Source of the DNA: Fibrobacter sp. | Lineage (GTDB): Bacteria; Fibrobacterota; Fibrobacteria; Fibrobacterales; Fibrobacteraceae | Assembly (NCBI GenBank): GCA_012523035.1 | Contig: JAAYJH010000006.1 | Location: forward strand, 1-41,085 | Length of the DNA: 41,085 nt | Direction: 5' to 3' | Shown here: positions 2,873-28,014 of the stretch, in pieces | Layout: every line of letters begins with the position of its first letter | How positions within the stretch are numbered: the stretch's first letter is position 1 | Program-made: the position numbers and the translations under genes | The notes under the pieces: generated by a model | Databases searched by the model: none | The model's input: the letters and a program-made list of their open reading frames with translations, nothing else | What the model was told of the DNA's origin: nothing

Positions 2873-3228
2873 ATGAGTGTCTTGATCATTTTAAACCGCC
2901 CCCCTTATGATCAAAGTGATGTGACCTGGAATGCACTTCGCTTGGCAAAAGAACTACACCAACAAAAATCATTGGTTCGAATATTTTAATGAATAATGCT
3001 GTCGATTTAGCTAGAGAATCTTGCGTAGCCCCAGAAACATACGATCAAGATTTAAAACAAATGTTAAAAGAATTAATTCATCTAGGAATTTCTGTTGAGG
3101 TTTGCGGCTCTTGCATGGCTCGCTGTGGAATCTATAAAAATGAAGCCTATTATAAAGGTGCTCATGCCTCAACTATGAAAAAATTAGCAGAATGGATAAA
3201 CACTTCAAATAAAGTCCTTACATTTTAA
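2873..3228 (+). pseudogene. DsrE/DsrF-like sulfur-relay family protein, interrupted by a frameshift
   Basis: The first frame (2873-2989) gives 38 residues starting MSVLIILNRPPYDQSDVTW and ending LVRIF, then TAA. The second frame (ATG at 2989) gives MNNAVDLARESCVAPETYD and goes on through VCGSCMARCGI to NKVLTF. Joined, they read like one DsrE-family protein of about 117 residues (typical: LIILNDPPYG, VRVFLMGDAV, ACGTC, WVLEADKVLVF). One extra T in the TTTT run at 2984-2987 would restore VRIFLMNNAV. The stop and ATG overlap as TAATG, so split translation by reinitiation is also possible. AAAGGAA lies before the ATG. DsrE proteins carry sulfur on cysteine; here the candidates are in CGSC and MARC. 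The gene heads the Fe-S ATPase cluster. A sequencing error in the T run is a real alternative. Confidence 0.7.
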
Positions 3229-3318
3229 AACAAAAGCAATGAACTCATAAACTTTCTCTGTTTTTATCCTTTTTATAATCAAAAATCATAAAATAAGTCC
3301 TATTTATTTAAAATACTG

Positions 3319-3334
3319 TTGTGCATATGCACAA
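3319..3334. promoter_or_regulatory. Palindromic operator candidate TTGTGCATATGCACAA
   Basis: Perfect 16-base palindrome, 47 bases before the ATG at 3382. It shares TTGTGC-N4-GCACAA with 2811-2826. An AT-rich segment with TATACT/TATATT follows and may hold the -10 element. I infer a CRP/FNR-family regulator binding both sites. Confidence 0.58.
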
Positions 3335-3381
3335 AATATACTATATTAGCTATTATAAGTTCGTATTTCATAGGAGAAACT

Positions 3382-3561
3382 ATGTTTAATTTGAATCGAA
3401 ATTTCAAAAATTGTTCCTTTTTTAGGAACGCAAGGCAAGGTTGCGGAATGGCAAATGCCAGTGGTCGAGGCATGAACGCAGGCCAAGGCCGTGGAATGGC
3501 AAACACCGTTGGATCTTGCAAAAGATTTCAACAAAAAATTTTAATGAACGGGAGGGTCTAA
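3382..3561 (+). CDS. Small Gly/Met/Arg-rich protein of NifX/Mrp loci
   Basis: 59 residues. The start is set by ATAGGAGAAACT directly before ATG 3382; longer upstream extension of the frame has no such site. The middle is a run of GM-type repeats (QGCGMANASGRGMNAG, GQGRGMANTVG), with cysteines at CSFF, GCGM and SCKR. It is similar in flavour to short DUF5320-type proteins that sit beside NifX-like and MinD/Mrp-like genes in anaerobes, but I cannot assert membership. Its TAA overlaps the ATG of the next gene, so the two are translationally coupled. The role is unknown; a metal-binding or scaffold peptide is an inference. Confidence 0.6.
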   Translation: MFNLNRNFKNCSFFRNARQGCGMANASGRGMNAGQGRGMANTVGSCKRFQQKILMNGRV

Positions 3562-3926
3562 TGCCTATTATAGCCTTTCCAAGTGCTGGAAACGACGAAA
3601 ATGCCGTATTAGATTTACGATTCGGCCGAGCCAAAAACTTTGTGTTGTACAATGAAAACACAAAAACATTTTCGGTCGTTGAAAACACTCAAAATATGCA
3701 AGCCAATCAGGGGGCAGGCATCCAATCTGCTCAAAATATTCTGGACAATAATGCAAGTGTATTAATATCTGGAAATTGTGGTCCCAAAGCTTTTCGTGTT
3801 TTAAATGCAGCACAAGTTCAAATCTTTTTTGCAGAAGCTAAACCCATTATAGAACTTTTACAAGATTATCAACAAGGACTCTTAAAAAAAGCAGAATCAG
3901 CAAACACCGAAGGGCATTGGGTATGA
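3561..3926 (+). CDS. NifX/NafY-like (dinitrogenase Fe-Mo cofactor biosynthesis domain) protein
   Basis: 121 residues starting MPIIAFPSAGNDENAVLDLRFGRAKNFVLYNE. The frame is open upstream to 3441, but GGGAGG lies just before ATG 3561, and the family begins at this point. The fold signature is visible: an N-terminal strand, FGRA, then GAGIQSAQNILDNNASVLISGNCGPKAFRVL. Relatives bind Fe-S/Mo cofactors or their precursors, but the same domain is common in organisms without nitrogenase, and no nif structural gene is present here. The stop overlaps the next start (ATGA at 3923-3926), so it is coupled to the ATPase pair. Confidence 0.85.
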   Translation: MPIIAFPSAGNDENAVLDLRFGRAKNFVLYNENTKTFSVVENTQNMQANQGAGIQSAQNILDNNASVLISGNCGPKAFRVLNAAQVQIFFAEAKPIIELLQDYQQGLLKKAESANTEGHWV

Positions 3927-4780
3927 AAATAGCCATAGCCTCTGGAAAGGGAGGGACTGGGAAAACCACATTTGCCTTGGCCTTGTTTTTGGCCAATTCA
4001 GATCGCAGTGTATTTTTAGATTGTGATGTAGAAGAACCCAATGCCCATTTATTTTTGAAAGGGATAGAAAAGCAAAAAGATGTGGTACAGTTATTGATCC
4101 CCAAAGTAAACGCAGATCTTTGCAATCAATGTGGTTTGTGCGTTAAAAGCTGTCAATTTAATGCTTTGGCTATGGCAGGTAAAGCAGGAGTTTTGGTGTT
4201 TAACGAGCTATGTCATAGTTGTGGAGCTTGTACTTTGATATGCCCAACGGGTGCAATTCAAGATGTTGAAACACCAGTAGGAGAAATAAGTATCTATGAC
4301 TTAAAAGGCGGTGCAGAATTTTTATCTGGACGATTAAAAGTAGGGCATAGTGCTGCTCCAGCGGTGATCCAAGCAGTCAAAAAACACCCCAGCACGACTC
4401 CATACACACATCACATTATAGACTCTCCTCCCGGCACCTCTTGCTCTTTTGTGACATCAGTTTCTGGAGCTGACTTTGTGATTTTAGTGACCGAACCCAC
4501 TCCTTTTGGACTTCACGACCTTAAATTAGCTGTGGAGGGCGTAGAAAACTTAAAATTACCTTATGCTGTGGTGGTCAATCGTGTGAGAGAAAAAGACCAC
4601 CTGATAAAAAAATACTGTGCAGAAAAAAACATAAAAATCCTTCTCGAATTAGAAGAAGACAGACGAGTCGCCGAAATGTATTCAAAAGGAGGCACTCTAC
4701 TTGAAGTGCTTCCAGACTTAAAAGAAAAGTTGAATTTATTACTAAGTGATTTAGAAGACCAAGTAGGAGCAAACCCATGA
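3923..4780 (+). CDS. MinD/Mrp-type P-loop ATPase with inserted 2x[4Fe-4S] ferredoxin domain (first of pair)
   Basis: 285 residues. Start chosen at ATG 3923, overlapping the previous stop as ATGA; a TTG six bases upstream is less likely. A deviant Walker A SGKGGTGKTT lies at 7-16 and DCDVEEPN at 33-40. A bacterial-type ferredoxin module follows: CNQCGLCVKSC (Cys 67, 70, 73, 77) and CHSCGACTLICP (Cys 97, 100, 103, 107). Then come IIDSPPGTS and TEPTPFGLHD, typical of MinD-type ATPases. These proteins pair ATP hydrolysis with Fe-S clusters; delivery of Fe-S or metal cofactors is inferred from relatives and from the adjacent NifX-like genes. The stop overlaps the start of the second ATPase (ATGA), suggesting that the two work together, perhaps as a heterodimer. 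Confidence 0.9.
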   Translation: MKIAIASGKGGTGKTTFALALFLANSDRSVFLDCDVEEPNAHLFLKGIEKQKDVVQLLIPKVNADLCNQCGLCVKSCQFNALAMAGKAGVLVFNELCHSCGACTLICPTGAIQDVETPVGEISIYDLKGGAEFLSGRLKVGHSAAPAVIQAVKKHPSTTPYTHHIIDSPPGTSCSFVTSVSGADFVILVTEPTPFGLHDLKLAVEGVENLKLPYAVVVNRVREKDHLIKKYCAEKNIKILLELEEDRRVAEMYSKGGTLLEVLPDLKEKLNLLLSDLEDQVGANP

Positions 4781-5667
4781 AATCCAATACACCCAAAGAA
4801 CTAGTGGTGGTCAGTGGAAAAGGAGGGACAGGAAAAACCTCTATCACCGCTTCTCTTGCTAGTTTTTTTCCAAAAAAAGTGCTTGTAGATGGAGATGTAG
4901 ATGCAGCTGATTTGCATTTATTATTCAATCTAAAAAACACAAAAACTGAAGATTATTATGGGGGTTCTATAGCAGAAATCATCCAAGACAAATGCACTCA
5001 ATGCGGTATCTGTGAATCTTTGTGCCGTTTCGACGCTATTATTTTTGAAGAAAATCGATATGTGGTTCAAGAAATGTCTTGCGAGGGGTGCAAAGTTTGT
5101 GTAGATCATTGCCCAGAAAAGGCTTTTTTGTGGAAACCTGACCTCAATGGAATTTGGATGGAATCAGAAACGCTGCACGGATCACTCATTCACGCTCGAT
5201 TAACACCTGGCTCAGAAAATTCTGGTAAATTAGTCACTCATGTAAAAGAAATTGGAAAAAAACGGGCCATAGAACAAAACACACCTTTAGTGATTGTCGA
5301 TGGACCTCCTGGAATAGGGTGCCCAGCTATAGCCGCCTTAACCGGAGCGAGTGGACTTTTGATGGTCACAGAACCTACACCTTCTGGTCTTCATGACTTG
5401 ATACGAATTTTAGATTTAGCGGCACATTTTAAGCTCAAGTCTTGTGTATTATTAAATAAAGCAGACATCAACCCAAAATATGAGGCTTTAATCCAAGCAG
5501 AAATCAAAAAATTTGACGCTAGCTTCATAGGGACGCTCCCGTATTCAAAAATATTTACGGAAGCTCAATTAAAAGGTCAATCTATTGTAGAAGCCTACCC
5601 TGATTCAAAAGAAAGCATCTACTTAAAAGAAATTGCAAAGCGTGTCACCTCTTTCTTAGGGCTTTAA
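4777..5667 (+). CDS. MinD/Mrp-type P-loop ATPase with inserted 2x[4Fe-4S] ferredoxin domain (second of pair)
   Basis: 296 residues, a paralogue of the preceding gene. Walker A VSGKGGTGKT is at about 12-21 and DGDVDAADLH follows. The ferredoxin module has CTQCGICESLC and then CEGCKVCVDHCP, eight cysteines in two standard [4Fe-4S] patterns. After it come VDGPPGIGCPA and TEPTPSGLHDL. The start overlaps the first ATPase by four bases. Tandem pairs of this type next to NifX-like proteins form a recurring but poorly characterised gene set in anaerobes (from memory of family context). The target enzyme is not visible; IorAB lies 540 bases away on the other strand. Confidence 0.9.
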   Translation: MKSNTPKELVVVSGKGGTGKTSITASLASFFPKKVLVDGDVDAADLHLLFNLKNTKTEDYYGGSIAEIIQDKCTQCGICESLCRFDAIIFEENRYVVQEMSCEGCKVCVDHCPEKAFLWKPDLNGIWMESETLHGSLIHARLTPGSENSGKLVTHVKEIGKKRAIEQNTPLVIVDGPPGIGCPAIAALTGASGLLMVTEPTPSGLHDLIRILDLAAHFKLKSCVLLNKADINPKYEALIQAEIKKFDASFIGTLPYSKIFTEAQLKGQSIVEAYPDSKESIYLKEIAKRVTSFLGL

Positions 5668-5783
5668 TTTTTTATATAGGAACAATATCAAAACAAAATC
5701 AAAAACATCTTTTATATTTATCCATTGAGAGTGCTTGACTTTGTTGTTTTAGATCATTTCACATCGAAAATACAGGAGAATTT

Positions 5784-6146
5784 ATGAAATTTGCCATCCC
5801 ATTAGCCGACGGAAAACTCACCGCTCATTTTGGGCACTGCAAAAGCTTTGCTTTTATAGAAGTAAAAGACCTTAGTGCCCCCGAAATATTTCAAGTCACC
5901 GAGTGTGAACCACCCCCACATGAACCAGGTGTGCTTCCCCAGTGGCTTTATGACAACCAAATCACGCATGTGATTGCGGGTGGCATGGGCGAAAGAGCTC
6001 GTAAGCTATTAGAAGCCAAAAGCATTCATGTCGTGGTAGGGGCTCCATTAGAAAAACCCGAAGTTTTAGTGAGCAGTTTTTTACTAGGAAAACTAGAAAA
6101 AGGAGACAATCTTTGTGGTCACGATGAAAACCACATTTGTAGTTAG
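5784..6146 (+). CDS. NifX/NafY-like protein with Cys/His tail (second copy)
   Basis: 120 residues: MKFAIPLADGKLTAHFGHCKSFAFIEV, ECEPPPHEPGVLPQWL, HVIAGGMGERARKLLEAKSI, ending KGDNLCGHDENHICS. The FGHC, PPPHEPG and IAGGMG motifs are characteristic of the family. The tail CGHDENHIC could bind metal. CAGGAGAA precedes the ATG. A 116-base gap separates it from the ATPase pair, so it may have its own promoter, though the TTGTGC palindrome of the other two sites is not present here. It probably works with the ATPases in cofactor handling (inference). Confidence 0.87.
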   Translation: MKFAIPLADGKLTAHFGHCKSFAFIEVKDLSAPEIFQVTECEPPPHEPGVLPQWLYDNQITHVIAGGMGERARKLLEAKSIHVVVGAPLEKPEVLVSSFLLGKLEKGDNLCGHDENHICS

Positions 6147-6154
6147 CTCAGAGT

Positions 6155-6184
6155 CTCTGCTTTATCTGTCGTAGATAAGCAGAG
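6155..6184. terminator. Hairpin between convergent NifX-like and iorB genes
   Basis: CTCTGC-TTTATCT at 6155-6167 pairs with AGATAA-GCAGAG at 6173-6184, with one bulged T and a short loop. It lies between two converging genes, the usual place for a shared terminator, but neither strand has a clear U-tract. Confidence 0.5.
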
Positions 6185-6209
6185 CAAAAACACTCATGGG
6201 TCCAGAGTT

Positions 6210-6683
6210 TTACAATCTACTCTCTCGACCCACATTAAAAGCCACTTGATTTCCAGCATGAAACTTGGGGTCAAAAAGTTTTTCTAAAGCCTTTTGCCAG
6301 TTTTCTAAAGAAAAATCCAAATAGGTGCTAAGCTTCCCTAGCATAGCCACATTCAGAGCTTTTTCGGTAGGGAGCTTATCGATTTCAATATCTTTAGGAG
6401 TGAGCAAAATGCCTCCTTCTTTTAGAGAAATTTCATTGACAGGCACTTGATCCTCGGCAAAAACCACTAAAAAATCTGCTGTTTTATCTGGAATCATGGG
6501 ACTTTGGACTTTATCTCCATAGCGTACTTCACTAGCCACAGAACCGCCTCGCTGGCTCATCCCATGCACTTCGGCTTTTTTCACATCCAATCCTAGGTCA
6601 AACACAAGTTCTGCAAAAACATCACTAGCCTTGACTACACCTGTACCACCAATGCCTGCAAATTTTACACTAGTCACTTTCAT
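6210..6683 (-). CDS. iorB: Indolepyruvate:ferredoxin oxidoreductase beta subunit
   Basis: 157 residues; the family is usually about 180-200, so it is slightly short. It has the gamma-domain signature of 2-oxoacid:ferredoxin oxidoreductases: VKFAGIGGTGVVKASDVFAEL, then EVHGMSQRGGSVASEVRYG. With IorA it catalyses the CoA-dependent oxidative decarboxylation of aryl pyruvates, such as indolepyruvate, to acyl-CoA with ferredoxin reduction. The reaction may run in reverse for aromatic amino acid synthesis in anaerobes. Its start overlaps the iorA stop by four bases (6680-6683), so the two are co-translated. Confidence 0.9.
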   Translation of the reverse strand: MKVTSVKFAGIGGTGVVKASDVFAELVFDLGLDVKKAEVHGMSQRGGSVASEVRYGDKVQSPMIPDKTADFLVVFAEDQVPVNEISLKEGGILLTPKDIEIDKLPTEKALNVAMLGKLSTYLDFSLENWQKALEKLFDPKFHAGNQVAFNVGRESRL

Positions 6684-8305
6684 AATAAAATCCCTGAATT
6701 TTGTTTGTTTGCTTTATCCCAAGCTACAATACTTTTTATCGCTAAAACACACGGGCTTTTGGCGACAATCAAAGTGAGCTCTTCTTTTTCGAGTGCATCT
6801 TGAAGCACTGTTTTTAGTTTGTCATATTCTTTGACAGGATTGATCACAAATACATTTTCGATCCCTGCCGCCTTTGCTATTTCACCATAATCCACCTTAT
6901 AAGCTGGAGTGTGGTCTAGTTTTCTACCGGTCCCTGGATGTTCTTGCTGACCGGTCATGGCTGTAATACTATTGTCCACCACCATCACTACATGGCCTGT
7001 TTTAGGGCGGTTATAGGCCATTTCTACAAGGCCTGTGATTCCACTATGGATAAAGGTAGAGTCTCCAATAACAGAAACCACTCGTTTAGCCTCTTCTTCG
7101 GGCAGCACATGCCGAAGCCCAAGGCCCATTCCAATAGAGGCACCCATATCGATCATCATGTCCATAGCTTCAAAAGGAGGTAAAGCCGCCAAAGTATAAC
7201 AACCAATATCTCCAGCAACGATACAATTCAATTCTTTGAGGGCAGTGAAAGAATCTCGATGAGGGCAACCTGGGCAAAGGGCCGGTGGTCGTCCGCGGAC
7301 TGGAACAGGTTCTGGAGAATTATCTTTGGCTAAAATTCGTTTTACTCTATCGACTGTAAGCTCACCAAATCGATAAATAGAATCTAGTTTAGCCTCTACA
7401 GTAATGCCCATAGCCATGATATTTTCAAATAGATAAGGATCATTTTCTTCTATGACCACCACTCGCTTGACTTTAGAACAAAAATCCTTTATTAAAGTAG
7501 CGGGGAGTGGATAAGTAAAACCTAACTTTAACACGCTGGCATCTGGAGCCGCTTCTTTGACATGGTGATAAGAAATTCCAGAACAAATAACACCTAGTTC
7601 ATCTGATGCCATTTCTACTCTGTTTGGCCCTTCTTGGCTATTCCACACAGCCATTTCTTCTATTTTTGCTCGAAGCCTTTTGGCGGCGGGTTTAGCATAA
7701 CCTGGAACCATCACACGCGAGGGAATATCTCTCACAAAGCTAGGTTTTAGGGCTTCGAGGGGCTCTTCTGTAATACGAACTATAGACTTTGAGTGATTCA
7801 CTCTTGTGGTCATTCGCAAAATAACAGGTGTTTTATAGCGTTCACTAGTTTGAAAAGCTATTCTTAGCATATCGTATGCTTCTTGCGAGTTTGAGGGTTC
7901 AAACATTGGGCATACCGCCGCTTTGGCATGGTTTCGAGTGTCTTGTTCGTTTTGAGAACTGGCTTGACCTGGGTCATCGGCGACCACCCAAACCATAGCC
8001 CCTTCTACACCAGAATAAGTAGAAGTGTACAAAACATCGCTAGCCACATTCAAGCCCACATGCTTCATAGTGACCAAAGACCTTGCATTTCCAAATGCTG
8101 CACCGAGTGCCACTTCAGCTGCCACCTTTTCATTGGGGGCCCACTGTGCATAGCCACCAATATCAGAATATGTTTCTAAAATTTCAGAAGAGGGGGTCCC
8201 TGGATAACCGGTAGCTATTTGCACTTTACAGTGAAGCATAGAAAGAGATATTGCTTCGTTGCCCGATAACAATAATTTTTTAGAGTGGGGGTCAAATGCT
8301 AACAT
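6680..8305 (-). CDS. iorA: Indolepyruvate:ferredoxin oxidoreductase alpha subunit, without C-terminal ferredoxin domain
   Basis: 541 residues. The N-terminal half is the pyrimidine-binding region (LSGNEAISLSMLHCKVQIATGYPGTPSSEI). CPGCPHRDSF is at 344-353, and the thiamine diphosphate region has GDSTFIHSG and VVDNSITAMTGQQ. Well-known IorA proteins are about 600-650 residues and end in a two-cluster ferredoxin module; here the protein stops at AWDKANKQNSGILL with no such cysteines. Electrons must then pass through a separate partner. AAGGAATTTT precedes the ATG. It is divergent in direction from the Fe-S ATPase cluster next door, which contains free-standing ferredoxin-type modules. Confidence 0.9.
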   Translation of the reverse strand: MLAFDPHSKKLLLSGNEAISLSMLHCKVQIATGYPGTPSSEILETYSDIGGYAQWAPNEKVAAEVALGAAFGNARSLVTMKHVGLNVASDVLYTSTYSGVEGAMVWVVADDPGQASSQNEQDTRNHAKAAVCPMFEPSNSQEAYDMLRIAFQTSERYKTPVILRMTTRVNHSKSIVRITEEPLEALKPSFVRDIPSRVMVPGYAKPAAKRLRAKIEEMAVWNSQEGPNRVEMASDELGVICSGISYHHVKEAAPDASVLKLGFTYPLPATLIKDFCSKVKRVVVIEENDPYLFENIMAMGITVEAKLDSIYRFGELTVDRVKRILAKDNSPEPVPVRGRPPALCPGCPHRDSFTALKELNCIVAGDIGCYTLAALPPFEAMDMMIDMGASIGMGLGLRHVLPEEEAKRVVSVIGDSTFIHSGITGLVEMAYNRPKTGHVVMVVDNSITAMTGQQEHPGTGRKLDHTPAYKVDYGEIAKAAGIENVFVINPVKEYDKLKTVLQDALEKEELTLIVAKSPCVLAIKSIVAWDKANKQNSGILL

Positions 8306-8373: not shown

Positions 8374-8436
8374 ATGATTACCAAAAGCCAGGCGCTTCTG
8401 AAACTTCATCCAACAGCGAATTATTTAAAAAGGTGA
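8374..8436 (+). other. 20-codon mini-ORF with strong ribosome-binding site, spanning repeat copy 2
   Basis: GGAGGAG at 8359-8365 is spaced 8 bases from ATG 8374. The frame gives 20 residues containing SQALLKLH and ends at TGA 8434-8436, overlapping the end of glk on the other strand. The ribosome-binding site is one of the best in the window, although no known protein follows. It may be a leader peptide, a toxin-like microprotein, the remnant of a lost gene, or chance. Confidence 0.3.
8385..8408 (-). repeat. CGCCTGGCT short interspersed repeat, copy 2 (type A)
   Basis: On the plus strand it reads AAGCCAGGCGCTTCTG then AAACTTCA. It differs at one base from the copy inside the acyltransferase gene (11467-11490). 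It lies between iorA and glk, 13 bases from the glk stop codon. Confidence 0.68.
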
Positions 8437-9654: not shown

Positions 9655-9678
9655 AAAGTCTCACACACGCCTGGCTTT
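9655..9678 (+). repeat. CGCCTGGCT short interspersed repeat, copy 3 (type B)
   Basis: AAAGTCTCACACACGCCTGG followed by CTTT, in the glk-prmA intergenic region. Its core is identical to copy 5 at 27209-27230, with CACA replacing the GAAG of type A copies. Confidence 0.68.
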
Positions 9679-10948: not shown

Positions 10949-12097
10949 ATGAAATTTTATTTTCCCGCTTTAGATGGACTTCGACTTTTAGCCTCTATTA
11001 ATATTGTTTTATTGCACCTTAGATCTTCTAATGCTTTAGTGTATGCCGAAAACTGGACTTGGCTTTCTCCAGTGATTCAAGCTCCTGCTTTTGCTGCTGG
11101 AGTCTTTTTTGTTTTGGCAGGCTTTTTATTTGCATCTAAATTTACAGACCCAAAGAGAAAAGTTTTGTGGCGGCCTTTTATGCTTTCACGGCTTTCAAAA
11201 CTTTATAGACTGCATTTTGCTATGACTTTACTTATGTTTTTGGTGCTAGCCTTTAAACTAAGTTCTTTGAATGGCTTCCCAAGTTCGTTGAACAGCCTTT
11301 TTAACGCTTTTGCTGAAGGATATGGGAAAATGCAAAATCCCATTAGGAGTCTTTTTTTGCATTTCAGTCTGCTATGGTCGGTGTTTCCCAAGCTTGGAAT
11401 GAAACTCAACGAAGCTTCTTGGGCACTCAGTTCTTTTTTTCTTTGTTATGCCCTAACTCCTTGGTTAAGCCAGGCGCTTCTAAAACTTCAACAAAAACAA
11501 ATTTGGATTCTTCTTTTTTTGGTCTTTATCCCTGGTGTTTTATGGGGGATTTTATTTGGAAATTTAGGGAATACTCCCACTTTTTTCTTTGAAAGCTATT
11601 CAGAAAAATATCGTTTTTTTCATATGTTTAGTCCAGTTCGGCTTTTTGAATATGTTTTTGGCATGCTTTTATTTAGACTTTATCAATGCGGTGCTTTTGA
11701 ATTTTTAAAGCAAAAATATTATGCTCAAATTTTTGAAGCTTTAGCGATTGCAGCTTTGTATATAAGTCTTTTCTTTTTAAACACCCCTTCTACTTCTTGG
11801 AATTATATCAACCACCATAGCCTTCCCATTTTTTTATATGGAATGCTAATCCTTTCTCTCACCACAAAACGCACTGTTTTGAGCTATCTGTTTTCTATTG
11901 GCCCTATTCGAGCGGTGGGGCGGGCCTCTTTTTATCCGTATTTAATACACCTCCCACTCATTAGCATCGCATGGAGTTTAGGCAACCTCAATACCCCCAA
12001 AGCCACCCTCTATTTTTTGATTTTCACTTATGGCATCAGCACTTTGTATTTGCAATTTAAAATTTGGAAAAAAAGAAAATTAAAAAAATCGTTTTGA
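10949..12097 (+). CDS. Acyltransferase 3 family integral membrane protein
   Basis: 382 residues with about ten membrane segments. The N-terminal family motif PALDGLRLLASINIVLLHLR carries the Arg and His typical of OafA/acyltransferase-3 proteins, which acylate sugars of surface polysaccharides or lipids. Start: ATG 10949 is preferred for the motif spacing, although AGGA at 10931-10934 is 14 bases away; a TTG at 10937 is the alternative and lies too close. A copy of the CGCCTGGCT repeat lies inside the gene at 11467-11490 (encoding SQALLKLQ). The substrate cannot be told; the surface-polysaccharide locus at 22-27 kb is a possible client. Confidence 0.8.
   Translation: MKFYFPALDGLRLLASINIVLLHLRSSNALVYAENWTWLSPVIQAPAFAAGVFFVLAGFLFASKFTDPKRKVLWRPFMLSRLSKLYRLHFAMTLLMFLVLAFKLSSLNGFPSSLNSLFNAFAEGYGKMQNPIRSLFLHFSLLWSVFPKLGMKLNEASWALSSFFLCYALTPWLSQALLKLQQKQIWILLFLVFIPGVLWGILFGNLGNTPTFFFESYSEKYRFFHMFSPVRLFEYVFGMLLFRLYQCGAFEFLKQKYYAQIFEALAIAALYISLFFLNTPSTSWNYINHHSLPIFLYGMLILSLTTKRTVLSYLFSIGPIRAVGRASFYPYLIHLPLISIAWSLGNLNTPKATLYFLIFTYGISTLYLQFKIWKKRKLKKSF
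11467..11490 (-). repeat. CGCCTGGCT short interspersed repeat, copy 4 (type A), inside a coding gene
   Basis: AAGCCAGGCGCTTCTAAAAC then TTCA, 23 of 24 bases identical to copy 2. It is in the same reading frame as SQALLKL in the mini-ORF at 8374-8436. The gene stays open through it. Confidence 0.6.
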
Positions 12098-27208: not shown

Positions 27209-27230
27209 AAGTCTCACACACGCCTGGCTA
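27209..27230 (+). repeat. CGCCTGGCT short interspersed repeat, copy 5 (type B)
   Basis: AAAGTCTCACACACGCCTGG followed by CT, the same core as copy 3. It marks the left edge of the 103-bp repeat island. Confidence 0.68.
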
Positions 27231-27239
27231 TTTTTAAGT

Positions 27240-28014
27240 GAGAAGTTGGAAGTTAAAAGTGCTCAGCGAGATGAACAGCATTTTCTGGCACAATTTTCGC
27301 ATGAATTCCCACGAGCAAAGTCCCATAACGATACATTCTTGATATACTGTTTCACCTCCCATTTCAATCACGCATCCCAGCAGATTTCTGGCACGATTCT
27401 CGCATGGATTCCCCCGAGCAAAGTCCCATAACGATACATTCTTGATATATAGTTTCACCTCCCATTTCAATCACACATCCCAGCATTTTCTGGCACGATT
27501 TTCGCGTAGATTCCCCCGAGCAAAGTCCCATAACGATACATTCTTGATATACTGTTTCACCTCTCATCTCAATCACGCATCCCAGCACATTTCTGGCACG
27601 ATTTTCGCATGGATTCCCCCGAGCAAAGCCCCATAACGATAGATTCTTGATACATAGTTTCACCGCTCATCTCAATCACACATCCCAGCACATTTCTGGC
27701 ACAATTTTCGCACAACACCGCCTTACACTTTAAGAAAGAAATTCACTTTTCACTGTTTCACCTCCCATTTCGAACACGCATCCCAGCACATTTCTGGCAC
27801 GATTTTCGCATGGATTCCCACGAGCAAAGTCCTCGCAGTGACGGAAAGGGAGAAGAAAAGGCGAGAATGTGTATTAGAGATGCTATCCGAAATGGATGCC
27901 AGAAAGAGAGGATGCGAACCAAAAAAACTCGCTTGCAAAAGCTCACAGCTTTTAACTTCCCACTTCCTACTTCTATATCGCGTAGATTCCCCCGAGCAAA
28001 GCCCTCACAATGAC
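27240..28014. repeat. Island of imperfect 103-bp tandem repeats with inverted flanks
   Basis: The word TTCTGGCAC recurs at 27283, 27386, 27488, 27591, 27694 and 27792, giving periods of 103, 102, 103, 103 and 98. Each full unit runs TTCTGGCACGATTTTCGCAT, GGATTCCCCCGAGCAAAGTC, CCATAACGATACATTCTTG, then TGTTTCACCTCCCATTTC, and ends at CATCCCAGCA. The last two units are degenerate. Outer ends carry opposed sequences: GAGAAGTTGGAAGTTAAAAG at 27240-27259 and CTTTTAACTTCCCACTTCC at 27949-27967. Two copies (27813-27843 and 27985-28014) end in CGCAGTGACG/CACAATGAC, resembling the widespread GTCATTGCGAGG-type REP-like sequence. Open frames across the array are by-products. There are no spacers, so it is not CRISPR. 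Confidence 0.85.

Follow-up and report, generated by a model that had tools for sequence, protein, structure and literature searches.

The window is a stretch of 41,085 nucleotides from Fibrobacter sp. (contig JAAYJH010000006.1, positions 1 to 41,085 of the forward strand), and corresponds to contig C120 of a draft genome of 2.2 Mb, 99.6% complete. Between positions 2873 and 6146, it carries on the plus strand a broken DsrE-like gene, a gene for a Gly/Met-rich peptide, a first NifX-like gene (NifXa, 3561–3926), two genes for MinD-fold ATPases (ATP1, 3923–4780, and ATP2, 4777–5667), and a second NifX-like gene (NifXb, 5784–6146). The overlaps in this block are real: TAATG at 3559–3563 joins the Gly/Met reading frame to NifXa, ATGA at 3923–3926 joins NifXa to ATP1, and ATGA at 4777–4780 joins ATP1 to ATP2, with a gap of about 116 bp setting NifXb apart from the overlapping block. 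The gene order of the cluster is repeated in relatives far above chance. An earlier note on this DNA described a compact metal–sulfur unit in which NifX-like proteins accompany a pair of Fe–S ATPases, with no nitrogenase, which holds; the combination, which that note took for an incompletely described system, is not undescribed and corresponds to the orp system with Orp3, Orp4, Orp8, and Orp9 (PMC6345978). The cluster is very probably a Fibrobacterota version of an orp-type (orange protein complex) operon and, judging from its genes, is one in which MrpORP is split, with NifXb in the cluster and Mrp elsewhere in the genome.

The two ATPases are of the Orp3/Orp4 type, each with a deviant Walker A motif (SGKGGTGKT), then two CxxCxxCxxxC ferredoxin motifs, and then switch II, so that a 2x[4Fe-4S] ferredoxin is inserted in the chain, as had been noted earlier. 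The ferredoxin motifs span C67–C107 in ATP1 (4121–4243; cysteines invariant in 22 sequences) and C73–C112 in ATP2 (4993–5112; cysteines invariant in 14 sequences), and the two families share the eight ferredoxin cysteines. Switch II reads DSPPGTSC in ATP1 (D167–C174, 4421–4444) and DGPPGIGC in ATP2 (D175–C182, 5299–5322), and the cysteine 7 residues past the switch II aspartate is invariant in all 32 aligned ATP1/ATP2 sequences. NifH has the same Asp–Cys spacing (YDVLGDVVC), which suggests that the switch II cysteine is structurally equivalent to the NifH cysteine. The AlphaFold model of ATP1 has a MinD fold (pLDDT 92) with the ferredoxin between Walker A and switch II, and a Foldseek search with ATP1 gave MinD as the best fold match, with Cfd1, HypB, BchL, and NifH also matched. 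The pair thus has the fold and the deviant Walker A of MinD, Mrp/NBP35 (ApbC, Cfd1), HypB, and NifH/BchL, and the NifH-like spacing of the switch II cysteine, but it differs from all of these in having a ferredoxin inserted between Walker A and switch II and in that two paralogues always occur together. At residue 39 of ATP2 (4891–4893), the window has VDGDVDAAD where relatives have D-C-DVDAAD or D-A-DVDAAD; ATP1 has the invariant cysteine C34 at this place.

The pair was followed in 105 loci including that of the window, which were drawn from the phylum and from a GTDB scan (the best 80 of more than 539 relatives). ATP1 was found in 24 of the 168 genomes of the phylum, and the ATP1–ATP2 pair is spread over many phyla, including one archaeon. 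Both ATPases are present in 100 of the 105 loci, with a median gap of -4 bp over the surveyed loci, and the five loci without both all lie at, or no more than 4 kb from, contig ends. The pair therefore travels together and its genes are linked in relatives, so the possibility raised earlier that they might prove unlinked falls away. In a tree of 57 + 57 sequences, ATP1 and ATP2 form one clade each with an SH-aLRT support of 100, which points to one ancient duplication inherited as a pair. Four loci (L052, L053, L056, and L129) have ATP1 and ATP2 in a single fused frame, that of L056 being clipped by the contig end; the single-chain fusions of L052 (7422–9248), L053 (9703–11535), and L129 (7065–8912) are attractive for structural work.

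The two NifX-like proteins match PF02579 at 7.6e-19 (NifXa) and 2.8e-16 (NifXb), in agreement with the earlier note, and theirs are the only PF02579 genes in the whole genome. NifXa is ORP/Orp8-like and matches the ORP structure 2WFB at 1.4e-12 across residues 4–106. NifXb is the stand-alone equivalent of the C-terminal (Di-Nase) domain of MrpORP; it aligns to positions 265–364 of the MrpORP model NF041136 at 1.8e-33 (116 bits, below the family cut-off of 450) and retains the HFGHC and terminal CGH (C-x-H) motifs. The Mrp of the genome, 364 amino acids long, is encoded on contig C114, unlinked to the cluster, and has no NifX domain, since PF02579 is restricted to the two window genes. A fused MrpORP above the cut-off was found in 10 of 41 tested pair-bearing genomes, and adjacent split Mrp and NifX halves occur in several others, among them G169, G176, G178, G183, G196, and G199. 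The same domain forms the stand-alone proteins TM1290 (1RDU), MTH1175 (1EO1), and TM1816 (1O13/1T3V), with PDB matches from 5e-13 to 7e-9; these are listed without an assigned function, 1O13 only as 'probable NifB protein', and they were compared by sequence. The PF02579 name together with the absence of nitrogenase could suggest a functionless leftover of nitrogenase-cofactor genes. The NifX-specific model TIGR02663, however, gives only 21.5 bits against a cut-off of 112, no nitrogenase-type NifDK or NifEN was found above threshold, and a nif cofactor system was rejected as the identity of the cluster. The pair, its cysteines, and the operators described below are conserved across phyla, and the DsrE-like gene is the sole broken one, so a nif remnant is in practice refuted and highly improbable.

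Known in Desulfovibrio since 2011, the orp system still has no settled task. In D. vulgaris, Orp3 and Orp4 are MinD-like proteins with two [4Fe-4S] ferredoxin motifs apiece (PMC6345978). Orp8 is a NifX-domain protein of a family that binds S2MoS2CuS2MoS2, Orp9, or MrpORP, joins an Mrp P-loop domain and a NifX-type Di-Nase domain in one chain, and the set also includes Orp5 (PMC6345978, PMC4672049). Fe–S transfer from MrpORP to apo-Orp3-Orp4-Orp8 was achieved in vitro (PMC6345978), and the Desulfovibrio orp operons are under sigma-54 control (PMC3897727, PMC4641369). The window shares with the orp set of D. vulgaris Hildenborough (Orp3, Orp4, Orp5, Orp8, and Orp9), a gene set known from anaerobes, the paired two-[4Fe-4S] MinD-type ATPases, the stand-alone NifX-like ORP, and the Mrp-type Di-Nase domain. 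It differs in that MrpORP is split with Mrp unlinked, in having neither a sigma-54 site nor an adjacent enhancer-binding gene, and in the addition of the Gly/Met-rich peptide, the broken DsrE-like gene, and palindromes of a DUF134 type. No further candidate for an Orp5-like small Fe–S protein was found within the cluster.

For the DsrE-like gene, the family given by the earlier note stands (PF02635, 1.5e-10), but the reading frame is not intact, a split at 2989 having been overlooked. Alignment to locus L033 of the relative G059 places the frame break between an N-terminal fragment of 38 amino acids followed by a stop (2873–2989) and a C-terminal part of 79 amino acids in another frame (2989–3228), which carries the PF02635 match. 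The intact DsrE of L033 continues as ...SIFLMNDAVDLAR, whereas the window reads ...RIF-stop and then MNNAVDLAR, which indicates one base lost in a T run near 2985; the break may be a sequencing or consensus error or a real pseudogene. DsrE occurs near the pair in 3 of the 105 loci. As the gene is both rare among such clusters and broken here, the sulfur relay named in the earlier note is not one of the core elements. The Gly/Met-rich peptide (59 amino acids, 3382–3561) has no Pfam match of its own and takes the position of DUF5320 proteins; the same-position peptides of relatives match DUF5320 weakly in G059 (0.01) and clearly in G057 (9.7e-9). A limited literature search found no functional paper on DUF5320.

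Two palindromes precede the cluster genes as proposed operators: TTGTGCTTTAGCACAA at 2811–2826, 46 bp 5' of the DsrE-like start codon, and TTGTGCATATGCACAA at 3319–3334, 47 bp 5' of the start of the Gly/Met-rich peptide, a site shared by relatives. They are the only two perfect copies of TTGTGC-N4-GCACAA in the genome, with 0.09 expected from base composition. The palindrome of relatives sits between DUF134 and NifXa or DUF5320 genes, and in several phyla the genes that follow TTWTGNNCATATGNNCAWAA sites in clusters of this kind are those for DUF134, DUF5320, or NifX. When 1.44 Mb of sequence was scanned for TTWTGNNCATATGNNCAWAA, 26 matches came up, of which 25 lie close to where a cluster gene begins; each of four control patterns matched at 0–2 sites. 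A second pattern, GNGCATATGCNC (at most 1 mismatch), lies upstream of 13 of 20 DUF134 genes, where shuffles expect 0.04; of 197 regions before other cluster genes, one has it. Both patterns were derived from some of the sequences that were scanned, so the contrast is optimistic for those sequences, and some loci are closely related. The arm sequences vary by lineage yet mostly remain self-complementary (GGGC/GCCC, GGAC/GTCC, and GAAC/GTTC), as expected for a bound operator.

The DUF134 (PF02001) proteins have a sigma-70 region-4-like helix-turn-helix. The window genome has a single DUF134 gene, on contig C55 (6087–6431), followed by a gene for a metallo-beta-lactamase-fold hydrolase and preceded by a degenerate operator copy, GCGTGTATATGCACAA; the two genes together span 6087–7248 of locus L173 (G000:C55). 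In G057, G146, and G149, the same two genes stand next to NifXa or to its DUF5320 gene. Both features of a DUF134-regulated cluster, the upstream palindrome and a DUF134 gene in the genome, are thus present. The distribution of the operator across cluster genes and phyla makes DUF134 the likely dedicated regulator, and the conserved palindrome before the cluster, which points to DUF134 as its predicted regulator, is what is new here. No functional paper on DUF134, UPF0251, or COG1342 was found in a limited literature search.

Other repeats lie in the same DNA. The repeat GAAGTYTCANANRCGCCTGGCT stands before both operator-bearing units and was considered as a specific signal, which was rejected, as it also occurs elsewhere in the window. 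It is a short dispersed, mostly intergenic repeat with 6 window matches (at most 3 mismatches) against 0.46 expected, and is found at 2680–2698, 8386–8404, 9658–9676, 11468–11486, and 27211–27229 and, in L173, at 5773–5791. At 27282–27832, beside a block of ribosomal protein genes, a 103-bp unit is repeated in tandem about 5.4 times. Sigma-54 regulation as in Desulfovibrio was likewise rejected, with no site before the genes and 6 of the 29 degenerate window matches inside this 103-bp tandem repeat.

The neighbourhood survey that the earlier note had called for covered the 5 kb to either side of the pair in the 48 loci whose sequence reaches that far, with family names mostly checked against Pfam, except for the radical SAM, PPOX, NADH-oxidase-like, and DUF1847 labels. 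ATP2 was found in 47 of these loci, NifX-type proteins in 45, DUF5320 in 30, Mrp in 19, metallo-hydrolase in 18, NifU in 12, and DUF134 and radical SAM-like proteins in 7 each, and no metalloenzyme recurs beside the pair. IorAB (6210–8305, minus strand), named by the earlier note as the nearest metalloenzyme, is a weak candidate for that place, since it lies on the opposite strand and the IorA of the window has no 4Fe-4S domain match in Pfam; as a client it was rejected, IorA occurring in only 2 of the 105 loci, the window and L062. The window IorA stops early on its model (537 of 595), and IorB matches chiefly the N-terminal half of its models. Family searches of the window genome found no [FeFe] hydrogenase, no [NiFe] hydrogenase, no MoaA, and no nitrogenase above threshold, PF00148 giving one weak match (E=6e-4), and the pair-bearing relatives G057, G059, and G146 have no matches to nitrogenase or FeFe hydrogenase. 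None of these enzymes is therefore an obligate client, and the nitrogenase, FeFe/NiFe hydrogenase, and molybdopterin pathways, to one of which the earlier note had allowed that the pair might belong, were rejected as the parent system. These results bear on the idea of the earlier reader that the cluster is a dedicated maturation system, in which a cofactor is built and inserted into one client metalloenzyme encoded elsewhere, as in nif or hyp. In its favour, the pair has members of cofactor-handling families near it (Mrp, NifU, and NifX-type proteins), and the fold matches include two maturation ATPases, HypB and Cfd1. Against it, the neighbourhood holds no recurrent enzyme, and genome sites with at most 3 mismatches to the operator are mostly intragenic, with no client-like regulon or further convincing target. 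The idea of one dedicated client is accordingly weakened to an unlikely reading, with a self-contained metal–sulfide system as the preferred one.

A role in positioning or cell division has also been proposed for ORP proteins (PMC4672049, PMC4641369); here, the MinD-like pair would bind the pole or membrane and place a division or segregation factor, with the Fe–S clusters making it sensitive to oxygen or redox state. MrpORP is polar, and MinD-like C-terminal amphipathic helices are stated for Orp3 and Orp4 (PMC6345978); MinD is the best fold match of ATP1, and the window ATP2 has an amphipathic end. On the other hand, ATP1 of the window has no clear amphipathic end, the MinD fold is common to NifH, HypB, and Cfd1, and the conserved neighbours handle metal or sulfur (NifX-type, DUF5320, Mrp, NifU, and CGGC) and include no division genes. 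This role appears rather improbable, slightly more so than maturation of a single client.

For the self-contained metal–sulfide system, the gene identities, pairing, split Mrp, and operator distribution are read from the sequences, and a mechanism can be proposed on them. ATP1 and ATP2 would form an obligate MinD/NifH-fold heterodimer with one 2x[4Fe-4S] ferredoxin arm each, and the invariant cysteine beside switch II of each would lie at the expected nucleotide-dependent interface. Mrp with NifXb would then load the Fe–S clusters of both ATPases, and ATP binding and hydrolysis would power the passage of electrons or of a cluster to NifXa. Like Orp8-type proteins with their S2MoS2CuS2MoS2, NifXa would carry a metal–sulfide cluster. 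Complex formation, Fe–S transfer from Mrp to Orp proteins, and the Mo–Cu cluster are taken from the Desulfovibrio work by analogy; the heterodimer, the direction of ATP-driven transfer to NifXa, the end-product role, and DUF134 binding are what we infer. These three steps, taken together, are tentative. In a fourth step, the DUF134 helix-turn-helix protein would control transcription both of the cluster and of its own gene through the TTWTGNNCATATGNNCAWAA-like palindromes that precede them, which there is good reason to expect. The system would not mature one dedicated enzyme; its product would be a metal–sulfide cluster, which it would assemble, store, or deliver.

Several points weigh against this account. 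Profile alignment (hhalign) of ATP1/ATP2 with NifH reached only the P-loop or C-terminal parts, and the AlphaFold model of the natural L129 fusion (pTM 0.55) was poor in its second half and showed no interface. ATP1 and ATP2 were set beside D. vulgaris Orp3 and Orp4 only through the published description of these. No sigma-54 -24/-12 site was found upstream of the cluster genes, though the genome encodes RpoN, and a fused MrpORP is absent from the window genome, only its C-terminal half being in the cluster. The metal–sulfide cluster in NifXa is a prediction that cannot be read from sequence, and a client enzyme may be encoded far away. An orp-type operon with a split MrpORP, a metal–sulfide product, and DUF134 control is nevertheless the best explanation as a whole and a reasonably probable one. 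The chances are about even that DUF134 (PF02001) proteins are dedicated regulators of orp-type clusters in several phyla through TTWTGNNCATATGNNCAWAA, with the regulator of the window set apart beside its metallo-hydrolase and acting in trans, and that the complex handles a metal–sulfide end product with no single client.

Across many phyla, the two ATPases form an ancient pair that is hardly ever separated, and nitrogenase, the [FeFe] and [NiFe] hydrogenases, and molybdopterin enzymes are excluded as the obligate orp client. The proposed regulator–operator pair allows the regulon to be searched for in one genome after another, a direct way to the inducing signal and any partner enzyme, and the uncharacterised DUF134 family gains a first concrete, testable proposed function.

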